A stretch of 36,459 nt of DNA from Deltaproteobacteria bacterium (GTDB lineage Bacteria > Myxococcota > JACPTQ01): NCBI GenBank assembly GCA_016192705.1, contig JACPTQ010000057.1, positions 1-36,459 on the forward strand. Reading direction: 5' to 3'. Numbering within the stretch: the stretch's first letter is position 1; every line of letters starts with the position of its first letter. Made by a program: the position numbers and the translations under genes. Below are positions 1 to 35,339 of this stretch, piece after piece. Under the pieces are notes generated by a model, which searched no databases, was not told where the DNA came from, and worked only from the letters and a program-made list of their open reading frames with translations.

Positions 1-251
1 GGCGTGGGATTGCCGTTCTCGTGATGTTTGATTCATTTCGTGCAGACTCACATTTCATGTCAGACCCGAGGACTTCCGCGAGCCGGAGCAAGCCCAGACC
101 CCGCCCGTCCCACGCTAATCTTTCCCGTTATCCGGGAATCGGGGTGCCCATAGCACCCACGTCCACCTTGCCTTAGAATAATGGAAGAAAGAAGAGATCC
201 TTGGTGCGCCGGAGCCGTCGTAACAAGGGATCGAAGGGAGATTCCGCTTTG
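1..251. other. Upstream region of the MoxR/VWA operon, no supported gene
   Basis: No convincing gene is seen here. The third forward frame is open from the window edge to a TAG at 173-175, but its translation resembles no family I recognise; it could be the tail of an upstream gene. On the minus strand an ATG at 58-56 opens a frame of about 19 codons to the edge, too short to judge. The region holds a short perfect dyad (142-158), a TAGAAT hexamer at 174-179 that could be a -10 element, and an AAGGGAG ribosome-binding site at 234-240 that fixes the start of the first operon gene. Confidence 0.5.
142..158. promoter_or_regulatory. Perfect 6-bp dyad (possible operator or weak hairpin)
   Basis: GGGTGC (142-147) and GCACCC (153-158) form a perfect inverted repeat around a 5-nt loop, about 95 nt upstream of the first operon gene and just before a TAGAAT hexamer (174-179). 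No T-run follows, so an intrinsic terminator is unlikely. An operator for the operon is possible but unproven. Confidence 0.3.
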
Positions 252-2105
252 ATGAAAGCGTTGCGCGCGGCCCGACACCACCCCGTCTTTGGCGCAATCC
301 AGAGGGTGCGCCTCCGTCTCGCAACACAGCGTGCGATCGATACGCTGGCCTGGGCGCTCGTGGGTGCGGGCGTTGCGGCGGTTGGGCTCGTTTTCGCCTG
401 GCGGCTCGAGTGGCTCACGGAGGGCGACCTCCTCTATATTGCCACACCCGCACTCGGTGCCGCCGTTTTCGTCGCGGCCGTTTTTGCGCTCGCACTCCCG
501 GTTCCCGTCCCGACAGCGCTCGAGCGCATTGATCGCGCGGGCAAACTGACCGATCGCGCTGGTTCGGCCTTTGAGTTCATGCAAGCGGGCCCGCTCACCG
601 ACTTTCAACGCGCGCAGCTTGACGATGCCGCCCGTCACCTCACCTCGTTTCGGGCGCGGAGCGTCGTGCGGTTCAAAACACCCGAAGCGTTCGTCTGGGC
701 CATCTTCGCGGGGGTCGCGGCGGTCCTCGCGTCGCTGGCCGATTTCTCAAAGCCCCCGACCCCGGACCCGATCGCTGAAGAAAAAACTTTGCCACCCTCG
801 CTTCCCCGCGACGTGATCGCCGAAGGGCAAACAGAAACAAACGAAATCGCGCGAGAAGCCGAGGTGCTCAAATCTGAGGAGTTGAAAGCGGTCGCGCGTG
901 AGCTCGAACGAATTTACCGCGATGCCGAGCGCGGAAACTTGTCGCGGCGCGATTTGCTTGCGCGCGTCAACGAGCTGGAGAGACGAATGAACGAGGCACG
1001 GCGTGCGGCGCTCGACCCGGAGCTGAAAGCGCTCGCAGCGATTTCGAAGAAGCTGCTTGGAAACCGGTTGACCAAAGAACTCGCGAAGGCGCTCAAGGAA
1101 GGGAACCTCGCGAAGGCGCGAGAGGAGCTCGAAAAGCTCGCGAAGCAACTTCGCGACAAGCCGCCCGACAAAGCGACCGAACGAAAGCTCGAGCAGCTGA
1201 TGCGCGAGATGGCAAAGACCGAGTCGAAGGCGGTCGAGCGAATGAAGGCTGAGGCGGAGAGCCTAAAGAAAAAGGCGTCGGAAGCGGAATCGAAGGGCGC
1301 GGCTGGGGCCGATGCGAAACGAGAGCGCGAACGCAAGCGCGAGCAGCTTGAGCGAGAGCGCGAGCGGCGCGAAAACGGTGCGCCGGGACAGATGTCGAAG
1401 GAGATGCAGCGCGCGGCGGACCAGCTCGCGAAGGGGGACCGACAAGGCGCGTCGAAGAGTCTCGAGCGCGCGGCCGAAAAGCTTGGCGAGGCGGAGCGAC
1501 GCGCTGGAGAGCAAGCGTTGCGGCAGCGGGCGAGCGGGGCGATCGGCGAGGCGAAGGAGGCGCTGCGGCAGGGTGGGAATCGACCCAAATCGGTCGATGA
1601 TTTCAAGCAGCGCGCAGCGGGACACGATCACCGCGAGGGCAAGGAGTGCCCCGCGTGTCACGGGCAAAAAGGTGGCAGCGACGGAAAGTCGCAAGCGGGG
1701 CGACGGGGCGAGCGGCTCGCGCGCGAGGGGCGGGCGTCGAAGCCCGGCGAGAAGGGCGGTGACGGCGAGCGAGGCGGGAAACCGGGGCAGGGCGCGGACA
1801 CGCCAAAGGGAGGGAAGCCGTCGGGCGGCGCGGGCGCGGGAAGCGATGAGGCCCTCTTGGGCGAATCGACGGAACTGAAGTCGACGCGCAAAGAAGAGCG
1901 TCTCGGCGCGACCGAGGGGCGCGGCGAAACGGTGTCGGAGGTGATCGCGGGCGGCGCGCAAAAGGGGTTTACATCGCGTCGATACCGGAACGTCTACGCG
2001 GCGTATCGGCGCGTTGCGGAAGAGGTCATGGAGAACGACCGCCGCATTCCGCACTCATTTAAGCGACTCATTCAACGATACATGGAGCTCATTCGACCAC
2101 GTTAG
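252..2105 (+). CDS. Three-TM protein with long charged coiled-coil domain (DUF4175-like), first gene of the MoxR/VWA operon
   Basis: A protein of 617 aa. The ATG at 252 is preferred over an in-frame TTG at 201 because AAGGGAG lies 11 nt upstream and the hydrophobic N-terminus then follows directly. Hydrophobic segments lie near residues 31-50, 60-83 and 145-164. The basic N-terminus and basic loop between TM2 and TM3 suggest N-in topology, so the C-terminal 450 residues would be periplasmic. That part is an extremely charged Arg/Lys/Glu-rich coiled coil (about 195-445), then a Gly/Lys-rich linker (about 475-555), and a conserved-looking tail ending in YRNVYAAYRRVAEEV and a short ELIRPR. A CPACH motif sits at 466-470. 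The general plan matches large coiled-coil membrane proteins found beside MoxR/DUF58 genes; the exact role is unknown. The next gene starts 8 nt downstream. Confidence 0.8.
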   Translation: MKALRAARHHPVFGAIQRVRLRLATQRAIDTLAWALVGAGVAAVGLVFAWRLEWLTEGDLLYIATPALGAAVFVAAVFALALPVPVPTALERIDRAGKLTDRAGSAFEFMQAGPLTDFQRAQLDDAARHLTSFRARSVVRFKTPEAFVWAIFAGVAAVLASLADFSKPPTPDPIAEEKTLPPSLPRDVIAEGQTETNEIAREAEVLKSEELKAVARELERIYRDAERGNLSRRDLLARVNELERRMNEARRAALDPELKALAAISKKLLGNRLTKELAKALKEGNLAKAREELEKLAKQLRDKPPDKATERKLEQLMREMAKTESKAVERMKAEAESLKKKASEAESKGAAGADAKRERERKREQLERERERRENGAPGQMSKEMQRAADQLAKGDRQGASKSLERAAEKLGEAERRAGEQALRQRASGAIGEAKEALRQGGNRPKSVDDFKQRAAGHDHREGKECPACHGQKGGSDGKSQAGRRGERLAREGRASKPGEKGGDGERGGKPGQGADTPKGGKPSGGAGAGSDEALLGESTELKSTRKEERLGATEGRGETVSEVIAGGAQKGFTSRRYRNVYAAYRRVAEEVMENDRRIPHSFKRLIQRYMELIRPR

Positions 2106-2113
2106 GAGAGGGA

Positions 2114-3118
2114 ATGGAAAACAAAACAGGCACAGACACGCGAGCGATCGATGCGCAGGCTGAACAGTTTCGGCGCACGTTTTTGCGCGTCGCCGAGGAG
2201 ACCGCGAAAGTTATCGTCGGGCAGCGCGACATCATTGAAGGGGTGCTGACGTGCCTCGTCGCGCAGGGGCACGCGCTCCTCGAGGGCGTCCCCGGGCTGG
2301 GAAAAACGCGGCTCGTAAAAACGCTCGGCGACACGATGCATCTCACGTTCTCGCGGATCCAATTTACACCCGACCTCATGCCCGCGGACATCGTCGGCAC
2401 CAACATCATCGCGGAGCGCGGCGGCGAGCGCCGTTTTGAGTTTCAGCGCGGCCCGGTCTTCGCGAACCTTGTGCTCGCCGACGAAATCAACCGCGCGACC
2501 CCCAAAACGCAGTCGGCGCTCCTCGAGGCGATGCAGGAGCGAAGCGTCACGGTCGCGAAAACCACGACAAAGCTCGACCCGCCGTTTTTCGTGCTTGCCA
2601 CGCAGAACCCGCTCGAAATGGAAGGCACGTACCCACTGCCCGAAGCGCAGCTCGACCGCTTCTTTTTTAAGCTGAAGGTTGGCTTCCCATCGCGAGACGA
2701 GCTCCACGCGATTCTTGACCGCACAACGCAATCCGACGAGCCAACCGTTGCCGCGACCGTCAGCCGCGATGAAGTCCTCGCGATGCGGGACACGCTTCTG
2801 GCCGTGCCCGTCGCGCGCTACGTGCAGGACTATGCGATTCGCCTCGTCCTCGCGACGCACCCGTCGAAGGACGCGCCCGACTCAACGCGAAAGTTCGTTC
2901 GTTACGGCGCGAGCCCGCGCGGCGGTCAGGCCCTCATGCTGGCGGGCAAAGTCAACGCCCTCCTCGGCGGGCGCTACTCCGTTGGGATCGACGACGTGCG
3001 CGCGGCCGCGAAAGCTGCGCTCCGACATCGCATCATTCTAAACTTCGAAGGCGAAGCCGAAGGCGTCGACACCGACGCTATCATCGAAAAACTGATCCTC
3101 GAGGTGCCCGAGCGGTGA
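2114..3118 (+). CDS. MoxR-family AAA+ ATPase
   Basis: A protein of 334 aa, the usual length for MoxR ATPases, which act as chaperones for VWA-domain partners. The Walker A motif GVPGLGKT is at residues 58-65, Walker B LVLADE at 119-124 with the family-typical DEINRATPKTQ following, sensor 1 ATQNP at 162-166, and the LDRF segment at 180-183. No signal peptide or TM segment is present, so the protein is cytoplasmic. An AGGAGAGG ribosome-binding site lies just before the ATG. Its stop codon overlaps the GTG start of the DUF58 gene (GTGA), which is the normal order for MoxR-DUF58-VWA operons. The ATPase motifs are intact. The substrate cannot be read from sequence; one of the VWA proteins of this operon is the likely partner. 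Confidence 0.95.
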   Translation: MENKTGTDTRAIDAQAEQFRRTFLRVAEETAKVIVGQRDIIEGVLTCLVAQGHALLEGVPGLGKTRLVKTLGDTMHLTFSRIQFTPDLMPADIVGTNIIAERGGERRFEFQRGPVFANLVLADEINRATPKTQSALLEAMQERSVTVAKTTTKLDPPFFVLATQNPLEMEGTYPLPEAQLDRFFFKLKVGFPSRDELHAILDRTTQSDEPTVAATVSRDEVLAMRDTLLAVPVARYVQDYAIRLVLATHPSKDAPDSTRKFVRYGASPRGGQALMLAGKVNALLGGRYSVGIDDVRAAAKAALRHRIILNFEGEAEGVDTDAIIEKLILEVPER

Positions 3119-4002
3119 ATAAGCGGCTCCAATACTTCGACGGCGATTTTTTGAAACAGCTCGAATTGCTTCACATCATCTCAAAGAAAATCGTCGTCGG
3201 CCGCGAGCGCGCGGAGCGCAAAGCGAAGCGAATTGGCAGCGGCGTCGAATTCGCCGACCACCGCGAATATGTTCTCGGCGACGATCTCCGCTACCTCGAT
3301 TGGAACGCGTACGGCCGCAGCGACCGCATGCTCCTTCGCCTCTTCCAGGAGGAAGAAGATCTTCACGTCAATTTGATCGTCGACGGCAGCGCGTCGATGG
3401 CCGCTGGCCACCCGACGAAGTTCGACACGGCACGGCGCCTCGCCGCAGCACTCGGCTACATCGCTCTCGCCAACCTCGACCGCGTCGGCGTCACATGCGT
3501 CGACGACGCCGTTCGCGCGCGCTCGCCCGCAAGCCGCGGCCGGTCGCACATTTTTCACCTGTTCGATTTTTTATCGGGGCTCGAACCCGGCGCCGGCACC
3601 GATCTCGCAACTGCCGTCAAGAACACCGTTCATGGCGCGGAACGCCGCGGCATGGCCGTACTCCTCAGCGATTTCTTCGACGCACACGGTTACGAAAACG
3701 CGATCCGCTGGCTCGTGTACCGGCGTTACTCTCCCATCGTTATTCAGATCGTCGACGACGCGCCCACCACGACGACACTGCGCGGCGACGTCGAGCTCGT
3801 CGACTGCGAATCGGGTCGCACCTTGGCCGCGACGCTGTCTCCCACCGTGCACCGCGAATACCGCGACTCGATTACAACCCACGAGCACAACCTCGAACGC
3901 TTCTGCACGGAAAACAACGTCCTCTACTTTCGCGCGCCGGTGCAGCAGCCGTTTCAAGACGTCGTTCTCCGACTGTTTCGCGCGGGGAGATTCCTCAAAT
4001 GA
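3115..4002 (+). CDS. DUF58 domain protein with VWA-like MIDAS
   Basis: A protein of 295 aa. The DUF58 signature is clear at residues 41-85: a GSGVEF start, the YVLGDDLRYLDWNAYGRSD core, then LLRLFQEEED. It is followed by a VWA-type metal site: D90-G-S92-A-S94, T162 in GAGTD, and D186 in LLSDF. No membrane segment is visible, so it should be cytoplasmic or peripheral. The GTG start overlaps the moxR-type stop by three bases, with GAGGTG 8 nt upstream, and its own stop overlaps the next start (ATGA). Such overlaps point to translational coupling. DUF58 proteins are near-constant partners of MoxR ATPases; their biochemical role is not firmly established. Confidence 0.92.
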   Translation: MNKRLQYFDGDFLKQLELLHIISKKIVVGRERAERKAKRIGSGVEFADHREYVLGDDLRYLDWNAYGRSDRMLLRLFQEEEDLHVNLIVDGSASMAAGHPTKFDTARRLAAALGYIALANLDRVGVTCVDDAVRARSPASRGRSHIFHLFDFLSGLEPGAGTDLATAVKNTVHGAERRGMAVLLSDFFDAHGYENAIRWLVYRRYSPIVIQIVDDAPTTTTLRGDVELVDCESGRTLAATLSPTVHREYRDSITTHEHNLERFCTENNVLYFRAPVQQPFQDVVLRLFRAGRFLK

Positions 4003-6026
4003 ACTTCGCGCGCCTCGACATGCAACTCTTCGCGGCGATCCTCGGCGCCGGCATCGGTGTCATGGTCATTCTGTACATCTTGAAGGTTCGGCGACGGCGT
4101 GTCGTCGTTCCCCACATCGAGCTGTGGCAGTTTGCGGCGCGCCGCCGCGAGGCGCGAACGCTCTGGCAGCACTTGCGCCGGTTCTTCTCGTTCCTCTTGC
4201 AGGCCGCCTTCGTAACGCTCCTCGCGTTTGCCATTGCCGATCCTCAGCGCATCATCGACCCGGTTGATGCGCGATCGCACGTCATCATCATCGACGGCAC
4301 CGCGACCATGCGCACACGCCTCGCGGGAACCACCGAAACGCGCTTCGACCGGGCGAAAGCCCTTGCACGACAGCTCGCCGAGCGAAAACCCTCGGCAGAA
4401 GACGCGATGATCGTTGTCTCGTCCGCACACCCCACCCCGCTTTCACCGTTTTCGCGCGACGCGACCACGATCGTCGAATCGATTTCGCGTGCGGCGCCGA
4501 CCGACGTCCACGCCACGCTTGACGAGGCCCTCCGCCGTGGCGCTGATTTCTTGCTCAACCGACCGTCGCCACGATTGACCGTCATCACAGACTTCGTCAC
4601 ACCCCTCGTCGAAAAGAAGTGGCGAAACGCGTTACCCGCTGCGCTCCACTTCGAAGCGCACGGCGTCGGCGAGCGCGCCGCAAACATCGGCATCACATCG
4701 CTGTCCGCGCGACGAAGCCTCGCGGATCCGCGAATCTACGAGCTCTTTGCGAGCCTCCGCAATTTCAACGAAGCCGAAACCTCCTCGGAACTTTCGATTT
4801 ACGCCGTTACGGGGAAACGGTGCGCCTCGAACCTCGATTGCGTTGGGGCCGGCGAATGCGTGACGGAGGCGTCCCTCTGCGGCACCGTTCAAGAAACGAC
4901 ACGCGTTCCGCTCAAGCCCGGCGAACGCGTGATCCGAACGTTCACTGGCGAATCGTCCGCGGCCGGTCGGTTTGTCGCCACCCTCGCGGCATCGCCCGGG
5001 TCGACGAGCGACGATTTCCCGACCGACAATGTCGCAACCGCAACGCTCCCCCCGCGTCCGCTCACGCGTGTGCTCCATGTCACGAACGGAAATCTCTACT
5101 TGAAGGGGCTTTTCGCTCTCGCGCCCGAGCAGTTCGACGTGACCGAGATGACGCCCGATCGATTCAAGTCGAAAGCGAACTCGTTGCCCGCGCACGACGT
5201 CATCCTCTTCGAAGACTTTGTCCCCACCGAAATTCCCCGCGTACCTTACGTCGTCTTCGCGCCCAGCGGGAACGACGCGCCGTTTGCGAGCGCACCCGAA
5301 GTCAAACTGCCGCTCGTGACCGATGTCTCCAAGAAGCACCCGATCACACGTTGGCTGGCGCTCAAGGACGTTAATATTGCGTCGGCGTTTCCGCTCAAGC
5401 CCCGCGCCGGCGACACCGTTCTCGTGCGCGGAATCTCGGCGACGGGTGGCGACGTTCCACTTGTCGTTGCGCGCGACGGCGCCATCGCGGCTCCCGGAAC
5501 ACGCTCGAGTGGCGGCCCCGGCCACGTTCAACCGCGCGCGCTCGCGATCGCCTTCGATGTCCGACGAAGCGACTTCGCCCTTCGCGTCTCTTTCCCCCTT
5601 CTCATCATCAACACGATCCATTGGTTTCAAGGACAATCGGATTCTGACACGGCGACGTACGGCACAGGGATCGCGCAGCGTGTCAATGTTCCGCGTGAAA
5701 GTCGCTCGCTCACGATTGAAACACCGAGCGGCAGCAAAGCCCGAACGGGTGTGGTCGGCGGCGTCGCGAGCTTCGCACCCAACCAAGTCGGCTTCTATGT
5801 TCTTCGTGACGGCGACCGTGAACTCGCGACCGTCGCGGCGAATCTCCCCGAATCCGCCGATTCGCATTTTTCGCCGCCGGCCGACGCGCGCGCCGCAACC
5901 CGCATCGAGCCGCGCGCCAAGCTCGTTGAACGGGCGAGTTTCGACATCTGGTTCATTCTCGTTGCGATCGCGCTCGCACTCACGACGCTCGAGTGGGTGA
6001 GCTACCACCGGAGGTTGACGGTTTAG
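3999..6026 (+). CDS. BatA-like VWA membrane protein with variant metal site and Cys cluster
   Basis: A protein of 675 aa. The ATG at 3999 overlaps the previous stop (ATGA) and has GGGGAG 8-9 nt upstream; the frame is open further upstream but only as a shadow inside the DUF58 gene. The N-terminus has the BatA-type layout: TM about 8-29, a basic loop with the HIELWQF segment, TM about 60-80, then a VWA fold starting SHVIIIDGTATM. The metal-site motif reads D99-x-T101-x-T103 instead of DxSxS. A Cys cluster (C275, C281, C287, C294) lies after the VWA fold, suggesting an oxidised extracytoplasmic insert. A long C-terminal region follows and ends in a TM at about 648-667 with a short basic tail. 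It is probably an inner-membrane partner of the MoxR ATPase. The variant site may bind metal weakly or not at all. Confidence 0.87.
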   Translation: MNFARLDMQLFAAILGAGIGVMVILYILKVRRRRVVVPHIELWQFAARRREARTLWQHLRRFFSFLLQAAFVTLLAFAIADPQRIIDPVDARSHVIIIDGTATMRTRLAGTTETRFDRAKALARQLAERKPSAEDAMIVVSSAHPTPLSPFSRDATTIVESISRAAPTDVHATLDEALRRGADFLLNRPSPRLTVITDFVTPLVEKKWRNALPAALHFEAHGVGERAANIGITSLSARRSLADPRIYELFASLRNFNEAETSSELSIYAVTGKRCASNLDCVGAGECVTEASLCGTVQETTRVPLKPGERVIRTFTGESSAAGRFVATLAASPGSTSDDFPTDNVATATLPPRPLTRVLHVTNGNLYLKGLFALAPEQFDVTEMTPDRFKSKANSLPAHDVILFEDFVPTEIPRVPYVVFAPSGNDAPFASAPEVKLPLVTDVSKKHPITRWLALKDVNIASAFPLKPRAGDTVLVRGISATGGDVPLVVARDGAIAAPGTRSSGGPGHVQPRALAIAFDVRRSDFALRVSFPLLIINTIHWFQGQSDSDTATYGTGIAQRVNVPRESRSLTIETPSGSKARTGVVGGVASFAPNQVGFYVLRDGDRELATVAANLPESADSHFSPPADARAATRIEPRAKLVERASFDIWFILVAIALALTTLEWVSYHRRLTV

Positions 6027-6035
6027 GGAATCACC

Positions 6036-8669
6036 ATGTTGGCGCAACTGCACTTTGATCACCCCGACCTTCTGTGGCTCCTTCTTGTGGTGCCGGTTCT
6101 CGTGATAGTGCTTTGGCGTTCGCTCGCCGACTTGCCCGCATGGCAGCTTGCGTTGTCGCTCCTCGTGCGCGCCGTCATCGTCGCCGCGCTCGTCGTGGGC
6201 CTCGTTCGCCCGCACCGTTTTGAAACGACGCACAAGATCGCCGTCGCGGTCCTCGCCGATGTCTCGGAGAGCATTCCCGACGAGGCGCTCAAAGAGGCGC
6301 AGGCGTTCATCGATACCGCTTGGGCGGCGCGCGGTGATGCGGAGATTCACGTCGTCAGTTTTGGCGCGCGACCGCACCTCGTTCCCGCTTCCGCGCCCGC
6401 GTCCGCAACCGCACCCGCTTCCGCTACCGCTACCGCAACCGATCCCAAGCTCCAAGGCGCCCCCCGCCTCGCCCGGCACACCGCGGCACAAGGCGGCGGT
6501 CGTGAATCGGATCTCGCGGCCGCGCTGCGTATGGCCGTTGGTCTCTTTCCGACCGGAACCATTCGCCGGATCGCTCTCCTCTCGGACGGCCGCGAAACCC
6601 GGGGCAGTGCCCTTGCCGCCGCAACGGAGCTCGCCGCGCTCGGGGTGCGGCTCCACGTCGTGCCGCTCACCATCAAGGAGCGCCCCGAAGCGCTCGTGCG
6701 CACGCTGCAAACGCCCGACAAGGTCCCGCTCGGAAAGCCGTTCGACGTTCGCGCCGAGGTCTGGTCAAGCCTTGAAACCGACGCGACGGTCACGCTCGAA
6801 CGCGATGGGTACCGGGAAAGTGCACGGCGCGCCGTCAAGTTGAAGCCCGGCGCGCAGGAGGTCGCATTCCGTGTCAAAGTGAGCGACCCGGGCCTCACGA
6901 CGTTTCGCGTTCAGCTGACCGCCGCAAAAGACACGATTCGCGAGAACAACACCATTTCGGAAGCTGTTTTCGTCGAGGAGCGTCCCCGCATTCTCTACAT
7001 CGAGGGCGAAGATCGTTTCGCGCACTACCTGGCGAACGCGCTCCGCCGCCAGGAGCTCGACGTTCAAGTCCGCGGCCCAAGCGGGTTTCCGATGACCACA
7101 ACCGATCTGCTTCGTTTTGACTTGGTTGTGCTCTCCGACGTCGCCGCGCTCTACTTGTCGTCCGGCCAAATGCGCGCGCTCGAGTCGTACGTCTCGACGC
7201 ACGGGGGCGGCTTCCTCATGGCCGGGGGCGTCAACAGTTTTGGCCCAGGTGGATATCACCGCACGCGCGTTGAGGCGATGCTGCCGGTCCGACTCGACGT
7301 TGAACGTCGACGTGAAGCGCCGACGGTTGCCATCGCCCTTCTCATCGACAAATCGGGCAGCATGCAGGGACCGAAAATCGAAATGGCGAAAGACGCGGCC
7401 AAGGCTGTTGTCGAACTCCTTGGGAACGAAGACCAAATTTCGATCATTCCCTTTGACAGCGCCGCGCACGCCCTCGTTCCGCTGCAGCCGGCTTCGAATC
7501 GCTCGCGCCTCATCGCCGACATCTCGCGCCTCTACGCGTCCGGCGGCACGAATTTTTATCCGGCGCTCGAACTCGCCTACCAAGAACTCGCCGCCACCCG
7601 CGCCCGCCACAAACACGCGATTCTCCTGTCGGACGGACAAGCGCCATCGCAAGGAATCGCCGAGCTGGTCGACAACATGCAGGCCGAGCAGATCACTGTG
7701 TCGACCGTCGGCGTCGGGGCCGACACCGACATGAAGACGTTGCGCATGATCGCCGAGCGAGGCGGCGGTCGCTGGTATTTCACCGAAGACGCCCACAACA
7801 TCCCAAAGATTTTTGCAAAAGAAACGTCGACGCTTACGCGCACCGCTGTCGTCGACCTGGCGACCAACGCGCGCGTCGTCGCACATGCGCAGTTCCTGAA
7901 GGGGATTGACATGGCCTCGGCGCCGGTCTTGACGGGATACGTGTCGACAAAGCCGCGCTCGCAAGCCGAGGTGGTGCTCGTCTCGGATTTCCGCGAGCCG
8001 ATCCTCGCGCGATGGCGATATGGGCTCGGCAAAGTCGCGGCGTTTACCAGCGACGTCAAGAATCGCTGGGGCGCCGAATGGCTCGGCTGGAGCGCCTATC
8101 CAAAGTTCTGGGCGCAGCTCGCACGCGACACGATGCGACAACGATTTTACCGGCGATTCGACATGCGCGCCGTTCCGGACGAAGACAACGCCCGCGTCGT
8201 CGCCATCGCCGTCGACGACAGCGAACGTTATCTCAACGGCCTCACCGCTACGCTCGACATCGTCGACCCGAAGGGCGCGCGAACGAAGGCCCCGCTTCAA
8301 CAATCGGCGCCCGGACAATACGAGGCCAAAATCCCGCTCACGCAATTTGGATCGTACGCCCTTCACGCGGAGTTTCGCGGGGCGGCCGGCGCCGTCGTCG
8401 GCATCTCCGACACCGGTGTCGTGAAGCCGTATCCGCGCGAATTCTCTGAGACGGGAAGCGACACCGCCCTGCTCGCATCGGTGGCTTCAACGACGGGCGG
8501 GCTCGTCGCGCCGTCAAGCGATGTCCTGCTCAAATGGCAAGGCGAGCCCGGAGAGCGCCGTCGCGAAGAGCTGTGGCCATTCATCGTGGCGGCTGCGCTC
8601 GCCCTTTTTCTCATCGACGTCTTCTTGCGCCGAATTCGATTGGGACGCGCGCGGGAGGTTCGCCTGTGA
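6036..8669 (+). CDS. Membrane protein with two VWA domains flanking a glutamine-amidotransferase-like domain
   Basis: A protein of 877 aa. AGGGA at 6025-6029, partly over the previous stop, gives a good ribosome-binding site for the ATG at 6036. Two TM segments lie at about 11-28 and 36-57. VWA domain 1 starts at about residue 68 with DVSES at 75-79 and SDGRE near 183. A GATase-like Rossmann segment follows at about 319-415 (ILYIEGED, later GGGFLMAGG) without an obvious catalytic Cys. VWA domain 2 starts at about 431 with a perfect DKSGS at 438-442, then GGTNF and LLSDG. A C-terminal TM (about 848-866) precedes a basic tail. The plan matches the large VWA/GATase-like proteins seen next to BatA-type genes. 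A hexanucleotide repeat encodes an Ala-x spacer at 118-135. The stop overlaps the next start (GTGA). Confidence 0.9.
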   Translation: MLAQLHFDHPDLLWLLLVVPVLVIVLWRSLADLPAWQLALSLLVRAVIVAALVVGLVRPHRFETTHKIAVAVLADVSESIPDEALKEAQAFIDTAWAARGDAEIHVVSFGARPHLVPASAPASATAPASATATATDPKLQGAPRLARHTAAQGGGRESDLAAALRMAVGLFPTGTIRRIALLSDGRETRGSALAAATELAALGVRLHVVPLTIKERPEALVRTLQTPDKVPLGKPFDVRAEVWSSLETDATVTLERDGYRESARRAVKLKPGAQEVAFRVKVSDPGLTTFRVQLTAAKDTIRENNTISEAVFVEERPRILYIEGEDRFAHYLANALRRQELDVQVRGPSGFPMTTTDLLRFDLVVLSDVAALYLSSGQMRALESYVSTHGGGFLMAGGVNSFGPGGYHRTRVEAMLPVRLDVERRREAPTVAIALLIDKSGSMQGPKIEMAKDAAKAVVELLGNEDQISIIPFDSAAHALVPLQPASNRSRLIADISRLYASGGTNFYPALELAYQELAATRARHKHAILLSDGQAPSQGIAELVDNMQAEQITVSTVGVGADTDMKTLRMIAERGGGRWYFTEDAHNIPKIFAKETSTLTRTAVVDLATNARVVAHAQFLKGIDMASAPVLTGYVSTKPRSQAEVVLVSDFREPILARWRYGLGKVAAFTSDVKNRWGAEWLGWSAYPKFWAQLARDTMRQRFYRRFDMRAVPDEDNARVVAIAVDDSERYLNGLTATLDIVDPKGARTKAPLQQSAPGQYEAKIPLTQFGSYALHAEFRGAAGAVVGISDTGVVKPYPREFSETGSDTALLASVASTTGGLVAPSSDVLLKWQGEPGERRREELWPFIVAAALALFLIDVFLRRIRLGRAREVRL
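6387..6440 (+). repeat. Nine in-frame GCNNCC hexamers
   Basis: Nine consecutive 6-base units of the form GCNNCC encode alternating Ala with Ser, Pro or Thr (residues 118-135 of the double-VWA protein). The array sits in a surface loop of VWA domain 1. Because the unit is 6 bp, gain or loss of copies would keep the frame, so the spacer length may vary between strains. Confidence 0.8.
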
Positions 8670-10762
8670 CACCGCGACTCGGCCGTTCGTTTCAGATGGC
8701 CCTGTTCTCAATCTTTGCGCTTCCTTCACTTGTTCGCGCCGACCGCGGTGACGACTGGCGTCCCGAAGCGCGCGGCGATGCGGCGCTGTTGACGCGATTC
8801 AAGCGAATGCTCGAGTCGGACCCCGGTCGCGACTTTGCGCTGAAGCGGCTCATCGACGGCGTTGGACTCGCGCCGCTCCTCGCCGAATACGAGGCGAAAG
8901 TGAAAGCGAGCCCGAGAAGCTTCTCGCTGCGTGTCATCTTGGGCCGCCTCGAGCAGCGGGCCGGTCGCACCGAAAACGCCCTCGCGTCGTTTCGAACGTC
9001 GGTCAAAGAGCGTCCCGACTCATTTCTCGCGCGCCGCCTGCTCGCGGAAGCGATCGCCGATTCGAACGCCGAATCCGCTGACGATGCGACGCGTGCGTTC
9101 GAAGCTGCATTGCAGGTTGCGAAAAAGAAGGATGAAAAACGCTTTTGCTACAAGCGACTCGCCGCGCTCGCCGTGCGCGGGCGTGACGTCGCGAAGGCCC
9201 TTGGCTATTGGCGTTCGCTCGTTGACCTCGAGCCCGGCAATCTTTTCGCGCGCGAAGAGCTTGCGCAAACCCTCACGACCCATGGCCTTCACGACGACGC
9301 GATTCGTGAGTGGAAGGCGATCCTCGCCGCGCGGCAAGGCGATACAGCGAAGACGGCCGAGACGCTGCGTGAGCTCGGTCGCGCGGAGGAGGGCGCGGGG
9401 GCGTGGGAAGCGGCGGTCGCGTCGTATCGGCGCGCGCTTGGACTTGTGGTGCCGAAGCACTGGCTTGCGCGCGAGCTGCGCGATCGAATTCGAAACACTT
9501 ACAAGCAGCAGGGAAAGCTCGCGTTGCTCGAGGCCGTCTATGAAAAGCGCAAAGGTGCAAGCGACGCCGCTGAGCTTGCGCGAATTCGAGAGGCGATGGG
9601 GAAAGAGCCCGAAGCGATCGCCGCGTGGCGCGCCGCCATCGCACAAAAGCCCGGGGAACCCGCGCCCCATCTCGCGCTCGCGCGCCTTCTCGAGAATGCC
9701 CAGCGCAACAAAGAAGCGCTTCTCGAATGGGATGAAGTCGTGCGGCGTTTTCCGAACGAGCCCAGTCACGCGCAGAATCGCGCACTTCTCTTGGAGCGAA
9801 TGCGCGATAAACCGCGTGCGCTCGCCGCGTGGCGCAGCATCGCCGCCCGCGCAACGCGCGACGGGGCACTTCTCTCACAGGCGGCAGACGCCTTCGTGCG
9901 ACTCTCGGCATCGGCCGATGCGGTCGCGACGCTCAAACGGCTCGCCGCGACGGATCCACGAGATCCCGAGCCGCTCCGAAAACTCGGCGACGCTTACTTC
10001 CGGCAAGGAAAACCGCGCGAGGCCGAGACCGAATGGCGGCGCGCGGTTTCGCTCTTCCGCGACCGCGCCGATGGACTCGTCGAGCTTTCGCGGATTTTTC
10101 GCGCGCACGAATTGCCCGAGCGCGCGATCGCCGCCCTCGAGGAGGCTGCGCGCCTCGCCCCGTCGAACGCGAACGTCGCCGAAGATCTCGCCGCAGCCTA
10201 CATTCGTGCAAAGGATCTTTCCGGTGCCATTCGGATGCTCGAGCGCGTCCTTGCCGTCGGCACGTCGCCGCCACAACGCGCACGGGCGCGCGCGCAACTT
10301 GTCGACCTGCTCCGCGACAACGGCACGCTCGCCGAAGCGATCGGCACCGTCGAGAAAAACCTTCGCGCAAACCCGAAGGACCGCGACGCCTGGAGATTCC
10401 TCGCTGAACTTTACCAGAGGTCACAGCGTCCCGATCGCGCCGAGGAGATTTGGGGAAAGCTCATCGCCTCGGATCCCAAAGATATTCAATCGATGCTCGA
10501 CCTCGAGAGGAGCCTGGAGGCACGCGGGGAAACGGATCGCTCCATTCGCGTCCTGCGGACCGCGATCGCCGCCGTACCGCGTCGCACGAAGGCCCTCACG
10601 AAACGCCTCATCGACGCGCTTCAGAAGGCGGGCCAAGCCGATGCCGCCGGCGAGACCGCGCGCGGACTTGCGCGAGGATTCCCAGACGACGCAGAGGTTC
10701 AGGCGATTGCTGGCGCCGTCGCGCTCGCGAACGGGATGGCCTCGCGCGCGAAAGAGCACTAG
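8666..10762 (+). CDS. Exported TPR protein; 5' part of an interrupted giant repeat protein
   Basis: As read, 698 aa. The GTG at 8666 overlaps the previous stop (GTGA) and has GGGAGG 7 nt upstream. It opens a clean signal peptide: basic TPRLGR, a hydrophobic core LFSIFALP, and a VRA-D cleavage site near residue 24. An in-frame upstream extension is only a shadow of the preceding gene. The rest is continuous TPR repeats (many A..L...A..L.P units), so the product is a periplasmic or surface scaffold. The frame stops at TAG 10760-10762 in the middle of a TPR and then stays open, in the same frame, to 18181. I read 8666-18181 as one ancestral gene of 3171 codons. Whether this half is made alone, or the stop is a sequencing error, cannot be told here. 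Confidence 0.87.
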   Translation: MTPRLGRSFQMALFSIFALPSLVRADRGDDWRPEARGDAALLTRFKRMLESDPGRDFALKRLIDGVGLAPLLAEYEAKVKASPRSFSLRVILGRLEQRAGRTENALASFRTSVKERPDSFLARRLLAEAIADSNAESADDATRAFEAALQVAKKKDEKRFCYKRLAALAVRGRDVAKALGYWRSLVDLEPGNLFAREELAQTLTTHGLHDDAIREWKAILAARQGDTAKTAETLRELGRAEEGAGAWEAAVASYRRALGLVVPKHWLARELRDRIRNTYKQQGKLALLEAVYEKRKGASDAAELARIREAMGKEPEAIAAWRAAIAQKPGEPAPHLALARLLENAQRNKEALLEWDEVVRRFPNEPSHAQNRALLLERMRDKPRALAAWRSIAARATRDGALLSQAADAFVRLSASADAVATLKRLAATDPRDPEPLRKLGDAYFRQGKPREAETEWRRAVSLFRDRADGLVELSRIFRAHELPERAIAALEEAARLAPSNANVAEDLAAAYIRAKDLSGAIRMLERVLAVGTSPPQRARARAQLVDLLRDNGTLAEAIGTVEKNLRANPKDRDAWRFLAELYQRSQRPDRAEEIWGKLIASDPKDIQSMLDLERSLEARGETDRSIRVLRTAIAAVPRRTKALTKRLIDALQKAGQADAAGETARGLARGFPDDAEVQAIAGAVALANGMASRAKEH
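10760..10762 (+). other. In-frame premature TAG inside a TPR motif
   Basis: The codons before the stop encode SRAKEH and those after encode RRALELQPDHA. Aligned to the 34-residue TPR consensus (G8, A20, Y/F24, A27, P32), the neighbouring residues fit: G at 8, A at 20, A at 27, P at 32. The stop falls exactly on position 24, normally Tyr or Phe. One change from TAC or TAT to TAG explains it. Other genes here (252-2105, 3999-6026) end normally on TAG, so general TAG reassignment is not supported. Confidence 0.85.
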
Positions 10763-10981
10763 CGCCGCGCCCTCGAACTCCAGCCGGACCACGCGCCCTA
10801 TGCCATCGGGCTCGCCGACGCCCTGAACGACGCCGGCGACGCGCGTGGTGCGGTTCGCGCCCTTCTTGATTTCATCCGTGAGGCCAAGTCTGAAGACCAA
10901 GTCGCGGATCCGCTCAAGCGCGCGATTCGAATCGCACAAGCAAGCAGCCGCCAGGGTGACCTTGAGGCGGGGCTCGAGGCG

Positions 10982-13900
10982 ATGGTTCGGAAGAATCCGA
11001 ACGGATTCCCGCAACGTCTCGCGTTGGCCGAGGTCTACAAGCAATCCGGAAAGTCCGACGCGTACACCGCGCTCATGCAGTCCGCAACCAAAGGGTCGGT
11101 CTCTGCACCGCGCGCCCTCGAACTCCTTGCGGAGCGCGCCCGCGAAGCGGGTGACACCAGCGCGGCGATCGCCCACCTTCGCGAGCTGACGCGCTCATCA
11201 ACGTCTGCGGCGAAGCCCGCGCACTTTAAAACGCTCGCGGAACTCCATTTTGAACGCGGCGAGACGGCCGCGGCCGAGGCCACCGTCCGTGAAATGGTGG
11301 CACGCGCCGCGGATCCGGCCGTGGCGTGGCGCGCGGCGGCGGTCCTCTTCCGAAAGTTCGGGATGCTTCTTCAGGCCACGCACGCGCTTGAGAAACAGGT
11401 CGAAACGAATCCCAACGATCTCGCCGCTCGACTCGAGCTCGCGCGAACATTAATCCGCGCAGAGCAGATGACGGTTGCGGAGCGTCACCTCAAATTCGTG
11501 GTTGAGCGCTCGCCGTCGCCCCGCATCGATCTTGGATCCCCCATCGATCCGACTTCGCTCCTTGGCCTCACACGATCCTCCGCGCAACCCGCCCCGGGTA
11601 CCGCGACCGCCTCCGCGGGTCGCGACCCTCGTCGTGAGGCGCTCTCCCTGCTTGTTTCACTTTACGAACGACGTGGTGATTCCGACGTCCTTGTGCGATC
11701 CCTTGAGCGCCGCGCAAAGGCCGCGAAAGATCGCGTCCGCATCCTCATCGACCTCGTCACCATTCTTCGAGAGCGCGGCCAAGACGATCGCGCACTGCAA
11801 CTCCTCGAGAAAACTTTGGCCGAAGACCCGCGCGAGCCGCTTTGGCACATCGTTCTTGCCGAAATCCTCCGCGAGCGAGGCCGGTCGGAGCGCGCCGCAC
11901 GACTCTACGAATCGGCCGAATCGCTCGACCCGTCTCGCCTCCGCGACTTCCGGTTGCGCCGCATCCAACTCCTCCTTGAGGCAGGACAGGGCGAATTGGC
12001 CTTGAAAGCCGCGCTCGACTTCCTTGCGCGCGAACCCGGCGCGACCGGCTTTGCCGCGAAGGTTGCCGATGTTTTCGCCGATCGGGGTGACGTTCAGCGT
12101 GGCGCGACATTCCTCGATCGCTTCGCCAGAGCGGACCGCGATCCGGCTTCCATCGCTTGGGCCGCGCTTCGGCCGCACCGGGTACGCCTTTACACCGCGT
12201 CGGGGCGATACGCCGATGCCGCACGCGCCGTTCTTGAATCGATGAACGACGAAGCCCTTCGGGCGCCGGCCGACCCCGCGCGCGTTTACCTCCGACGGGA
12301 AAAATCGGTGGCCCAACTCTTGAAACTTCTCGATGCACCGGGACTTGCGTCATTTATTTCGTCCTCTGAATCGCGGGTCAAAAAGAACCCGTCGGATCTT
12401 TACGCGAACCTAGATCTGCACCTGGCCGGAAAACTCTCGCAAAACGTAAACCTCGAGGTGGTTCCACTCCCGCGACTCGTTGTCCTCTTGCCGCGCGATC
12501 GCGCCCTCCTTCGCGTCGCCGTCGAACGCCTCATCGCCCACCAGCGTCACTCGGAGCTCACCCGCGCCCTGACTCAACTTCGCGACAAAGCCACCGACGT
12601 TGGCCTTCGACGCCTCGTTGCGCAATCGCTTCTCGCCGAAATTGCGCGCCTCGGATGGAATCCGGGAAATCCCCTCGCCGGTGCGCTGATTTCCGATATT
12701 CTGGCCGGTCTCCCCACCGTCAGCGATCTCCGAATCGCCATCGACGCGCTCACCGTGTGGCACGACCTTGCACGCGCGATTGAACTTGGCGAGCGCGCAC
12801 GGGCCATGGCCCCATCTGATGCCTCGCTTTACGACGTTCTCGCGCGGCTCTACGAGCGCGCCGGCCAGCGAGAGAAAGCGCGCGAGGTGTTTCGAAAGTC
12901 GCTCGACCTCGGCCTCGCAATCCCGCACCGCGCGACGTCTGCCGCCCGCGATCGATTTGCGGCCGCTCAAATCCGCGTTCGCCAAGAGCTTCTCCTTTAC
13001 TCTCGGGCCGGCCTCATCGCCGATTACGTCAAGCGCCTCACCGATCGCCACAGCAAAGATCCGACGAATCCCAACACGGCTTACGACCTTGCCGCCCTTC
13101 ACACGATTCGCGGAAACCGCGGGCACGCCCTCTCGGTGCTTGAGCGACTCGTTCGCGCCCGTCCCACCGACGCCGAAGCTGTCACCGTCCTTGCAGACCG
13201 GTATCGCGAACGTTTCAATTACCACACGGCCATTGAGCTCTATGAACGCGCGCTCGGACTCGCGGGGGCCCCTCGAAAACCGATCCTCGAGGCGCTCTTG
13301 CGCTGCTACGAGGCGACCCGCAATCGTCGCCGCGCTGCGACGGTCGGACGCGAGCTGGCGCTGCAGTGGGGAGACGTTCATGCGCTCCGCCGGCTTGTGG
13401 GTGAATTGCGCGCTGCGGGACGCGTCGACGAAGCGGTGAAGGCGCAACGCCGCCTTCTGTCGCGCACCCTCTCGGCTCGATACCCCGATCCGAGAACTTT
13501 GCAGATTCGCGTCGACCTCGAGCTCGCCGATTTTCTCTTGGTCGACCTCGGCCAAGTCGGCCGCGCGTTGTCGCTCCTCGATCGCGTCGTCGAACGCGTC
13601 AGCACGCTCTCCCCAGAATCCGAGGAGCGAAAAGATGTGGTTCGCAAAGCTGTTTACCACTGGTGGAGCCAAAACCTTCTCGAGAAAAAGATCGGACATT
13701 TCCTCGAGGAAGCGAAACGCCACCCCCGCGATACGTTCCCACATGAAGTGCTGTACCAAATCGCCATACGTCGCGGCGACAGTCCGGCCCGTGTGCAGGC
13801 CCTGACGACCATAATCTCGCTGCGCCCAGGCGACGCCCGCGCCGTCCGAGAGCTTGCCGCGTTTCACGCGAGTCGCGGCGAAGTTGCGCGCGCACTCGAA

Positions 13901-16900
13901 TACCTTGAACGCCTCTCGGGGATGTCCAGCGACGTCAACTCGCTTCGCGACCTCGGCACCCTGTATCTGCGGCTGAGAAAAACCGCCGAAGCGAAACAAG
14001 CGTGGACACGCATGGTCGAGCGCCAGTACCCGTTTGTGAGTGGCCTCCACGCCCGCGTCAACCGGGCGTTCGCGTTGGCCGAGATTTTTGATCAGAACGG
14101 ACTGCTCGAAGACGCCGAGGCCGCGTTCCTCGAAGGTTTGAGCGCGTCGCCCACCATTGAAATCTCGCGACTCGATCGCGTCTTCCGCTTTTATCGGGCG
14201 CGTCGTCGGCCCGTCGATGCGCTTCGCCTCGCGGCACGTGAATTTTCGCGCGCCACAAACCGCTCGGTCCAGTACGGAATCATGGAACGCTTGGTCCCGT
14301 ATGGGTACGCGGCCATCGCAGAAATCCGCACGCTCAGCAACCTCGTCGACCGAAACGCAGTGCCCTCGCTCGGCCCGCATTTCCTCTACCTATTCCACGG
14401 GACCGTCGGGACGCGACTTTCTTACTTGGGCCGCACGGACCAAGCGACCGCCGCGTTCGCAAAGGCCTTCGAGAAGGGCGTCGGCACCGAATTCCTGACC
14501 AATCTCCAGGACCTCATTCGACGGCCCGGATCGTCGCCGATGCTCGTGACCCTTTACGAACGCGTCGTCGACCAAAATCCATCGAACGCCGGTTTGCTCA
14601 TCAGCGCCGGCGATTTTTTTATGCGGCTCAAGAAGAACGACACCGCGATGCGATTTTTCCGCCGCGCCGCGGAACGCTCCATGTCGGCCGCAACGGTCCA
14701 GCACTTCGTGCTCCTCTTGGACCAGAATGGCCGTGAGGACGAAGCGGACGATGTGCTGCTTCGCGCGCTCACGCGAATGCGATCGGACATTACGCTCGCA
14801 GAGCGAATTGAGGAAAGGTGTCGGTCGCGGCGACGGCAAAGCCAACGAAAGCTTCTCGAAACGGCCTACCGCACGCTGGAGCTGAACGACTCGACGCCCG
14901 CGACCGAGTTGCCCCGCTTCGCAGAGTGGTTCGTTCGTGCGGGCCGCCTTCGCGACGCCGTGGAAGCGATGCGGCGCGCGCTCGAGCGGGCAACCGTCGG
15001 CGTCAGCAGCAACCGCGCCTCGCGACTCCGACTCATCGAAATCCTCCGGCGATCAGGTAACGACGCGCTCGCGGACGAGGCCTATCTTGAAGAGCTCGGC
15101 CTCGGCGCGACCCGAGCCAAGCGGCGTCTCGATTTAGCACAATTGCTTTCAGCCCAAGGGCTTCGTGCCATCGCCGCTCGAGAACTTGAGCGCGCGGCGT
15201 TCCTCGCGCCGACCGATCGCGCGGTGGCGTTGGGCGCGGCGGAAGAGGCTCTGCGGTTCGGAGATTGGGCAACGGCCGAACGCATTGTGGAAATCACAAC
15301 GCGAGCATCGCCCCTCCCCATCGCGGAACGCGACGCGTGGTCACGGCGACTCGCCACGGCCCGCCAAGAGAATCCGCTCCTTCGCAATGCCCGAAATCTT
15401 CGGCTCGAGGACGGTTGCACCGCCGTTGCAACGGTCGATTCTCAGTTCGTTCACGTCGATTGCGCCGGAAGTCGGATTGTCGGGCGGACGGGCGTAACCG
15501 GCGAGCCGACGTGGAGCATCGCGCTGCCGCGTCTGCCGGCACACGTTGAAAGGAAGAACTTGAGCGTGCGATGGCGATATCGGCCCGTCGCGTTCCAGGT
15601 TGTCCGCGCGGTACATGACTCAACGCTTGTTGTTGTCCTGAACATCGAACAGCACGAAATCGTTCGCGGCCTCACAACCGGGCGCGTCACGGGAACCGTG
15701 GTTCAGCGCATTGACGTTTCTCGCGGTCCTTCGGGTTCGCGCGCCCGCCTCGCCTGGGAACGTACGTTGACCGGCGATTTCGCGTCGGGCGTGGCGATCG
15801 GAGACACCTCCCTCGCCGTTGTCGGTTCGATCACACGCGTGCTCAGCCTTGCGACCGGCGACGTCCTGGCGCGCCGCGCGAGCGGGGGCTGGCGATACGG
15901 GTGGCTGTTTGGTGATCGCAGCTCCGCCGCTCCCGTCGCGCTTCCCCACGCCACCGGAACACGGTTTGTCGTTGGGGGACCGGCCGGTCGAATTCTCGCG
16001 ATCAACGCGCAAACCCAAAAGATCGTTTGGTCGGCAAAGCTCGATGGCGCAATACGATCGCTCGTCGTGGACCGCACACCCGCTCCAGCTCCCGGTGCCG
16101 CAAACCTATTTGTCACGACGCGCAACCGACAGCTCGTGGCGCTCGATGGCGACGGGCGTACCGCGTGGCGACGCACCGCCAACGTCCCACATTCACCCCT
16201 GGTTCTCGATCGGCTCGTTGTCGCCGCGGAAAAAAATGGACGCGTATTTGCCGTTGAAAAAAGCACGGGCCGACTCGCTTGGGCGTCTCGCCTCGCAACC
16301 GAACCAACGGGGGCGCCCGTGGCGGCGCTCGACGGCGTCGCAATTCCGGGGTCCGGGAACACGGTTTCTCTCCTTGACCGAAACGGCGTGCTCCGCGCGG
16401 TGCGCCGATATGACAGCTTAGCCAGCGCCGCGATCCCGCTCGATTCAACGGCGTTTCTGGAACCCGTTCTTCGCGATGACCGAGCGACGGAATACGCGAT
16501 TCGACCGTGGGCGACAACCAATATCTCCAAGTTGCTCGCCGTCGCGCGTCAAATCCGTGAGTCGCATAATCCGGGCCGAGAGGCCGATTACCTTCGCGCC
16601 ATTGTTGACACCAAGGACTCGGAGCACCGCGACATCTGTCTCGCACTCGCTCAGATCGTCCAGAAGACTCCCGACAAAGCGGAACTGCTTCGATGGGCGT
16701 CGTGTTTCTACCAACTTAGCCCGCGCGGACCGCATCGCGTTTCGCGGCTTCTCCAACTTTTCGCGCAGCAAGCGAACCCCGCGAATCCCGTTGAGCGGAA
16801 GAATCTGTACGACAAACTGATGGCCCTTCGTTCGCGCGTCGAGTCATCGAGCCCTGAGGCGTTCGCACCGCTCGATGCCGTTTTGCTTTCGCTCATCCTC

Positions 16901-18181
16901 AGCGACAAATCGGCGACCGACAGCAAGATCGAGGACGCGCTTCTTCGTCTCGAACGAAGTGGAAGTGCGGCGGCCCAGATCGATTTTTGGGCGATCGCGC
17001 GTTCGGATTCGCGCCCCGCGGTCAAAGCAGCAGCCCTCCGTGCTTGGCTGCGAACAGGCGAACATCGGGCGCGCGATGGGATCGAAATGAGGCTCCGCTC
17101 GACCGATGCGACCGATCGGGCCGATTCGCTGGCGGCGCTCGAGCCCGACCTGACCCGCGACGATATGCCGTTGGTCAAACCACTGCTTGGCGATTCGGAC
17201 CCGGCGATCCGCGCACGCGCGGCGCGATTGATCGCGCGCATGAGCGATCCCGCGAACCCAGAGACGGCCGCGACGCTCGCGGTGCTTCGCCAAAACGCGC
17301 TTCACTTGCCGCCCTCAGAGCGGGTCTTTGCGGCGCTCACGTTGCACCGCTTTGGCGACCCGGGCGGACTTGGGATGCTTCGATGGCTCTACGCAAACGC
17401 GACGCTCCCCGTTCGCGTGCGAGCCGCGGAGGCCCTTTGGGAAGCTGGAGACCCGGTCGGCCTGCCGACGCTGATCAGAGACCGGCGTGGACGTGACGGG
17501 AGCTCGAGCCTCACGTCGATGCGAATTGCCCTCGGGAACCTCTACGCCTTCTCGCACGACACCCGAAGCGCTGAGCTTGAATTCCGGTCCGCCATTCAGT
17601 TTGATCCGATGTTTGAAAAACCGTACTTCTTGCTCGGACTCTTACGGCTGCGCGCGGGGCGCCACGACGAAGCCATCGAACTCTTTGATGATGCGCTGAA
17701 ACGCAACGACGCGTTTGCGCCAGCGCTTCTATTTGCGGGCCTCGCCGAGTTGCGTCTTGGAAACGCGAAGGCCGCAATGCGTCGCGTAACCGCCGCGATC
17801 GCGCTTGACCCTGACCTACCCGACGCGCGCGCCATCGCCTTGCTCGTGCGCGCGGAAACCGACGACCTGCTGGAGGTGACACGAGCCGCCCGCGAGCTCG
17901 TCAACCGCGAACCCTCCGCGCAACATCACTTTCTGGTCGCGCGGCTCCTCCTCCACCGGCGACTAAAAGAAGCGCGTGACGTCCGCGGCGCCGCGACACA
18001 TATCGATGCCGCGATGGCGTCGCGGGCACGAGATCCTGAAACCGCAATGGAGGCCGCCCGAATTTGGGACGAAATCGGCGACCGGGTCCGGGCTCGCGCG
18101 GCCTGGACGCGAGCGCTCGACCTCCTTCCAGAGTCGGCGACCGATGAACGGGCTCAGATCCGTGCGCGGCTCAACCGGTAA
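10982..18181 (+). CDS. Giant TPR / PQQ-type beta-propeller / HEAT / TPR protein; 3' part of the interrupted gene
   Basis: It is 2399 aa from the first in-frame ATG (10982); the frame is open back to 10763, directly after the TAG. That ATG lies inside a TPR array, lacks a signal peptide and has no good ribosome-binding site, so it is unlikely to be the natural start. Approximate layout: TPR arrays to residue 1465; a PQQ/BamB-like propeller at about 1470-1815 with recurring units such as GRILAINAQTQKIVWSAKL and GRVFAVEKSTGRLAWASRL (about six blades); a helical linker; HEAT-like repeats at about 2003-2173; and a final TPR set at 2180-2399. All are protein-binding folds, with no enzyme motif seen. 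With the upstream part it would be an exported scaffold of about 3170 residues for the MoxR/VWA machine. It ends at TAA. Confidence 0.85.
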   Translation: MVRKNPNGFPQRLALAEVYKQSGKSDAYTALMQSATKGSVSAPRALELLAERAREAGDTSAAIAHLRELTRSSTSAAKPAHFKTLAELHFERGETAAAEATVREMVARAADPAVAWRAAAVLFRKFGMLLQATHALEKQVETNPNDLAARLELARTLIRAEQMTVAERHLKFVVERSPSPRIDLGSPIDPTSLLGLTRSSAQPAPGTATASAGRDPRREALSLLVSLYERRGDSDVLVRSLERRAKAAKDRVRILIDLVTILRERGQDDRALQLLEKTLAEDPREPLWHIVLAEILRERGRSERAARLYESAESLDPSRLRDFRLRRIQLLLEAGQGELALKAALDFLAREPGATGFAAKVADVFADRGDVQRGATFLDRFARADRDPASIAWAALRPHRVRLYTASGRYADAARAVLESMNDEALRAPADPARVYLRREKSVAQLLKLLDAPGLASFISSSESRVKKNPSDLYANLDLHLAGKLSQNVNLEVVPLPRLVVLLPRDRALLRVAVERLIAHQRHSELTRALTQLRDKATDVGLRRLVAQSLLAEIARLGWNPGNPLAGALISDILAGLPTVSDLRIAIDALTVWHDLARAIELGERARAMAPSDASLYDVLARLYERAGQREKAREVFRKSLDLGLAIPHRATSAARDRFAAAQIRVRQELLLYSRAGLIADYVKRLTDRHSKDPTNPNTAYDLAALHTIRGNRGHALSVLERLVRARPTDAEAVTVLADRYRERFNYHTAIELYERALGLAGAPRKPILEALLRCYEATRNRRRAATVGRELALQWGDVHALRRLVGELRAAGRVDEAVKAQRRLLSRTLSARYPDPRTLQIRVDLELADFLLVDLGQVGRALSLLDRVVERVSTLSPESEERKDVVRKAVYHWWSQNLLEKKIGHFLEEAKRHPRDTFPHEVLYQIAIRRGDSPARVQALTTIISLRPGDARAVRELAAFHASRGEVARALEYLERLSGMSSDVNSLRDLGTLYLRLRKTAEAKQAWTRMVERQYPFVSGLHARVNRAFALAEIFDQNGLLEDAEAAFLEGLSASPTIEISRLDRVFRFYRARRRPVDALRLAAREFSRATNRSVQYGIMERLVPYGYAAIAEIRTLSNLVDRNAVPSLGPHFLYLFHGTVGTRLSYLGRTDQATAAFAKAFEKGVGTEFLTNLQDLIRRPGSSPMLVTLYERVVDQNPSNAGLLISAGDFFMRLKKNDTAMRFFRRAAERSMSAATVQHFVLLLDQNGREDEADDVLLRALTRMRSDITLAERIEERCRSRRRQSQRKLLETAYRTLELNDSTPATELPRFAEWFVRAGRLRDAVEAMRRALERATVGVSSNRASRLRLIEILRRSGNDALADEAYLEELGLGATRAKRRLDLAQLLSAQGLRAIAARELERAAFLAPTDRAVALGAAEEALRFGDWATAERIVEITTRASPLPIAERDAWSRRLATARQENPLLRNARNLRLEDGCTAVATVDSQFVHVDCAGSRIVGRTGVTGEPTWSIALPRLPAHVERKNLSVRWRYRPVAFQVVRAVHDSTLVVVLNIEQHEIVRGLTTGRVTGTVVQRIDVSRGPSGSRARLAWERTLTGDFASGVAIGDTSLAVVGSITRVLSLATGDVLARRASGGWRYGWLFGDRSSAAPVALPHATGTRFVVGGPAGRILAINAQTQKIVWSAKLDGAIRSLVVDRTPAPAPGAANLFVTTRNRQLVALDGDGRTAWRRTANVPHSPLVLDRLVVAAEKNGRVFAVEKSTGRLAWASRLATEPTGAPVAALDGVAIPGSGNTVSLLDRNGVLRAVRRYDSLASAAIPLDSTAFLEPVLRDDRATEYAIRPWATTNISKLLAVARQIRESHNPGREADYLRAIVDTKDSEHRDICLALAQIVQKTPDKAELLRWASCFYQLSPRGPHRVSRLLQLFAQQANPANPVERKNLYDKLMALRSRVESSSPEAFAPLDAVLLSLILSDKSATDSKIEDALLRLERSGSAAAQIDFWAIARSDSRPAVKAAALRAWLRTGEHRARDGIEMRLRSTDATDRADSLAALEPDLTRDDMPLVKPLLGDSDPAIRARAARLIARMSDPANPETAATLAVLRQNALHLPPSERVFAALTLHRFGDPGGLGMLRWLYANATLPVRVRAAEALWEAGDPVGLPTLIRDRRGRDGSSSLTSMRIALGNLYAFSHDTRSAELEFRSAIQFDPMFEKPYFLLGLLRLRAGRHDEAIELFDDALKRNDAFAPALLFAGLAELRLGNAKAAMRRVTAAIALDPDLPDARAIALLVRAETDDLLEVTRAARELVNREPSAQHHFLVARLLLHRRLKEARDVRGAATHIDAAMASRARDPETAMEAARIWDEIGDRVRARAAWTRALDLLPESATDERAQIRARLNR

Positions 18182-23938: not shown

Positions 23939-23940
23939 AT

Positions 23941-25326: not shown

Positions 25327-25352
25327 TCTTGGCGAATATGTGGCCATACAGC

Positions 25353-25397
25353 TTGACTTGACGCATAGGGTCGACTTAGCACATAAAACCGACTAAG
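25353..25397 (+). promoter_or_regulatory. Possible promoter/operator between the two GGDEF genes
   Basis: The 124-nt gap holds overlapping TTGACT (25353-25358) and TTGACG (25358-25363). The second is 18 nt before CATAAA (25382-25387), a fair -35/-10 pair. CGACTTAG (25372-25379) and CGACTAAG (25390-25397) flank the putative -10 and contain the inverted pair CTTAG/CTAAG. This would allow the second gene to be expressed apart from the kinase operon. No experimental support exists in the sequence itself. Confidence 0.35.
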
Positions 25398-25450
25398 AAG
25401 TTTTGTGCGTAGCGGGGATTGATTTAGCTGTCAACGAAGAGGGGGCTGCG

Positions 25451-35329: not shown

Positions 35330-35339
35330 GGCGTCGCGC

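Follow-up and report, generated by a model that had tools for sequence, protein, structure and literature searches.

The reading frame at positions 8666-18181 of the analysed window, a stretch of 36,459 nucleotides, is by its sequence one gene with one bad codon, and not two genes. It is highly probable that a single point change, without any recoding, accounts for the interruption. Translation of the frame gave 3,170 sense codons and exactly one internal stop, TAG 10760-10762, as the first-pass annotation had described. The stop is residue 699 of 3,172 and has the codon context AAA GAG CAC TAG CGC CGC GCC. The frame is assigned to one gene because the TAG falls mid-helix in a TPR solenoid predicted with confidence, the coding signal is continuous across it, and no start codon follows for 73 codons. 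The features of the gene and of the operon that precedes it are listed in Table 1.

Table 1 Positions of the operon genes, the parts of the giant gene, and the tRNA gene with a duplication
Feature	Position	Strand	Remark
ORF without Pfam match	201-2105	+	
MoxR AAA ATPase	2114-3118	+	
DUF58	3115-4002	+	
BatA/VWA	about 4041-6026	+	
VWA with GATase1-like domain	6036-8669	+	
5' part of giant gene: GTG start, signal-like N-terminus, TPR solenoid	8666-10759	+	698 codons
TAG, position 24 of TPR encoded by 10691-10792	10760-10762	+	translation, Pfam, own TPR profile
In-frame codons without ATG/GTG/TTG	10763-10981	+	73 codons; coding score above ORF mean
Rest of giant gene from first in-frame ATG	10982-18181	+	no further internal stop
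TPRs in 3' rest of giant gene	within 10982-18181	+	
BamB-like PQQ propeller, best stretch	about 16088-16396	+	
HEAT repeats	about 17160-17480	+	
C-terminal TPRs	about 17500-18170	+	
tRNA-Arg(UCU) with duplication	L057:1199-1286 = contig C40, about 23099-23186		not called by ARAGORN

A stop codon within a TPR

The frame is open upstream as far as position 8534. GTG 8666 is the likely start of the giant gene, since it overlaps the TGA that ends the preceding gene (GTGA) and leads into a signal-like segment, TPRLGRSFQMALFSIFALPSLVRA. This segment was judged by eye, and to that extent the signal peptide that had been claimed for the 5' half is present; the propeller and HEAT repeats were found in the 3' half, where they had been placed. 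The 2,472 open codons 3' of the TAG would arise by chance with a probability of about 2e-30 at this base composition. The coding score in this frame reaches 0.17 over the 33 codons that precede the stop and 0.23 over the 73 that follow it, compared with an ORF mean of 0.14. The first ATG, GTG or TTG in frame 3' of the TAG is the ATG at 10982.

Significant tandem TPR matches run across the TAG. A TPR profile built from the giant protein itself identified nineteen full repeats, one of which comprises residues 676-709 and has the TAG at its position 24 (7.3e-9). This repeat was among the seeds of the profile, and the independent test is provided by Pfam. With X written at the stop, the TPR_2 (fragment residues 68-99, profile positions 3-34) and TPR_14 (69-108) families span the TAG, and these matches disappear when the two halves are searched apart. 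With Trp in place of the stop, AlphaFold predicted a continuous two-helix solenoid for a fragment starting at 10100 (mean pLDDT 88.9), in which the stop residue is number 221, inside the helix 214-227. The own profile, Pfam and the predicted helix thus agree with the initial assignment of the stop to TPR position 24, and a natural gene boundary at the TAG is very unlikely.

If the locus alternatively comprised two genes, the first would encode an exported TPR protein of 698 residues, and the second a separate cytoplasmic protein of 2,399 residues translated from ATG 10982 or from a rare start. The ATG is present and has GAGG-like bases near it, but the Shine-Dalgarno spacing is poor and the ATG is preceded by 73 in-frame codons with good TPR coding. 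A boundary at the TAG would also halve both a TPR and a helix. Furthermore, the propeller part has no signal peptide, which bears out the expectation that the 3' half would have no export signal if it were translated separately. We consider the presence of two genes very improbable.

Decoding of TAG in the genome

The first-pass annotation had named real suppression among the possible explanations of the stop, which is contradicted by several properties of the genome. Release factor RF1 is intact (509 bits). The cut-off for PylS is 178 bits; the best match in the genome scored 20.6, and matches also appear in 13 of 14 control genomes. The check for an amber-suppressor tRNA returned no CUA anticodon among the 41 tRNAs detected in this draft assembly, from which some expected tRNAs are missing; forty were typed by ARAGORN, all of them as sense tRNAs, and the remaining one is UCU according to its loop CTTCTAA. 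TAG is a normal terminator that ends 53 of 206 coding-like ORFs. The genes terminated by it include those that we take, by recognition of their sequences, to be AccB (before AccC) and MglB (before MglA).

Split genes were sought as frames in which coding continues past a stop and no start lies within 25 codons. No other clear case was found in the 1.85 of 5.2 Mb screened: besides TAG 10760-10762, the output consisted of the shadow of this site on the antisense strand and a single gene boundary of the ordinary kind. Inspection of other candidate split genes covered the five with TAG. Judged by recognition of the sequences, L056, L083, L102 and L107 look like ordinary boundaries between different genes (such as CheY-ThiL, MglB-MglA and AccB-AccC), and the fifth, L076, has an ATG 14 codons 3' of the stop.

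The frame after the stop is perfectly kept, which could be explained by programmed or suppressor-mediated readthrough that would yield a short exported TPR protein together with a rare full-length form. The 3' context of the TAG is GC-rich and T-poor, and in E. coli reporters high-G, low-T downstream sequence favours readthrough, for which TAG ranks between TGA and TAA (PMC11126739). Some leak at the TAG is possible because of this behaviour of TAG and of the downstream sequence in the reporters, but the site carries no mark of a programmed one. The RNA structure 3' of the TAG is unremarkable (z = -1.05), and the TAG is positioned in the middle of a helix and not at a domain boundary. Together with the tRNA set, the PylS and RF1 results, and the absence of a second TAG-split gene from the screened part, these observations make readthrough highly unlikely. 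That the TAG is kept as a leaky stop, so that a short exported TPR protein and, rarely, a full-length scaffold of 3,170 residues are made in fixed proportion, is scarcely credible.

The locus resembles amber recoding (pyrrolysine, suppressor tRNA) and stop codon readthrough in having an in-frame TAG and a long open continuation. It differs from them in that neither PylS nor a CUA tRNA was found, RF1 is intact, and TAG terminates genes in the part of the genome that was examined. However striking, the stop can be accounted for by the known decoding rules.

Origin of the stop codon

The codon that was lost can be estimated from position 24 of the other eighteen repeats of the own TPR profile, which is occupied by Leu in six, Trp in five, Phe in four, Val in two and Tyr in one. 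The Leu codons are CTC or CTT and never TTG, so that the codons one step from TAG are TGG in five repeats and TAC in one. The change from TGG to TAG is a transition. Because of these counts and the type of the change, the ancestral codon is likelier to have been TGG (Trp) than TAC or TAT. The first-pass annotation had regarded TAC/TAT as the obvious ancestor; position 24 favours Trp, and Tyr is a possible second choice as the original residue.

If the 3' part had been neutral, one new stop would be expected per ~0.5% of divergence and three per 1.5%, whereas none is observed. The 3' part does not contain a frameshift either. Because there is no further stop or frameshift in the 3' part, the sequence indicates that the change is recent, or absent from the organism. 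The frame is intact but for one stop and its coding signal is continuous, and we put the chance that a real recent nonsense mutation occurred in the giant gene at about even. A wrong base in the consensus would give the same sequence. We infer the ancestral codon, the recency of the change, and its presence in the organism as opposed to the consensus alone.

An assembly or consensus error, in which case the codon would be a sense codon in the organism and the giant gene would be intact, is a serious possibility of somewhat under even chance. The 3' part is free of any sign of decay, and the genome is a draft of 88 contigs with a completeness of 96.65%. Expected tRNAs such as Ile-GAU are missing from the typed set. 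In the only tRNA-Arg(UCU) gene found, 15 nt of the D arm are duplicated in tandem (AGCAGGATAGAGCAA twice). This duplication would be expected to harm the tRNA, and it is either an assembly artefact or the mark of a damaged essential tRNA. Since the duplication is hard to accept in a living cell, it raises the prior for assembly errors. An error at the TAG is disfavoured by the change being a lone substitution outside homopolymers and repeats, with no indel in 9.5 kb, which would be atypical of long-read errors, and by the screen of 1.85 Mb, which gave no further split gene.

The real recent nonsense mutation would make the locus comparable to pseudogenised bacterial genes, with which it shares the single in-frame stop, the otherwise intact frame and the ordinary TAG terminator. 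It differs from them in being known from a consensus sequence alone, and no intact homologue was found.

The operon of the giant gene

The giant gene is preceded by adjacent MoxR, DUF58, BatA and VWA genes (201-8669), the arrangement of a Bat-type operon. A synteny search in GTDB genomes, which went via the VWA/GATase gene, found MoxR, DUF58, BatA and the second VWA gene together in 58 of 80 loci, in records titled Myxococcales, Acidobacteria, Planctomycetota and others. The best of these matches are from Myxococcota, which suggests a place near that phylum for the organism. The first ORF of the operon (201-2105) is conserved with it, being present as well in 42 of the 80 loci, and matches no Pfam or NCBIfam family. 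The giant gene is absent from all 65 loci that have at least 1.5 kb downstream of the operon, where the longest downstream frame is 1,251 aa. In 84,980 species, a search with peptide patterns, the reach of which is limited to close relatives, did not recover any relative of the 3' part. Searches of 58 and of 193 genomes from the phylum gave only generic TPR or propeller matches and not the architecture of the giant protein. By sequence comparison, the giant gene is a lineage-restricted addition to a widespread MoxR/VWA operon, found only in this genome among those searched.

In Bat (aerotolerance) operons of Bacteroides, Borrelia and Leptospira, TPR proteins accompany MoxR and VWA genes (PMC5700661). 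The operon described here is similar to these (PMC5700661) in having MoxR, DUF58, a BatA-type VWA gene and an extracytoplasmic TPR protein in one run of genes. In contrast to them, it has a second VWA gene with a GATase1-like domain, and its TPR protein comprises about 3,170 residues, includes a propeller and HEAT repeats, and is lacking from the relatives of the operon. On this analogy, a possible role of the giant protein is that of an extracytoplasmic scaffold for the VWA complex.

Positions 18872-26836 of the window encode a hybrid of Ser/Thr kinase, AAA, TPR, GAF and histidine kinase (1,688 aa), and then two response regulators that carry GAF and GGDEF domains. A 993-aa protein (26897-29878) has a weak nSTAND-like NTPase match in its N-terminal part and a DNA-binding Trans_reg_C match in its C-terminal part. 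The minus strand carries a 567-aa ORF with Kelch repeats forming a galactose-oxidase-like propeller (33722-35425).

Based on the operon and the frame, the following sequence of events can be proposed. The last gene of the MoxR/VWA (Bat-like) operon would have encoded an exported TPR-propeller-HEAT scaffold of about 3,170 residues. One recent base change, most likely from TGG (Trp) to TAG, would have placed a stop in the middle of a TPR helix. With translation terminating at this TAG, a TPR fragment of 698 residues would now be secreted, and the 3' part would not be exported.

The stop is really present in the sequence, but it is ordinary. For annotation, the two proteins predicted here should count as a single gene that is either broken or mis-assembled. 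The giant gene is unusual in its own right, and it could be studied if an intact copy were sequenced.
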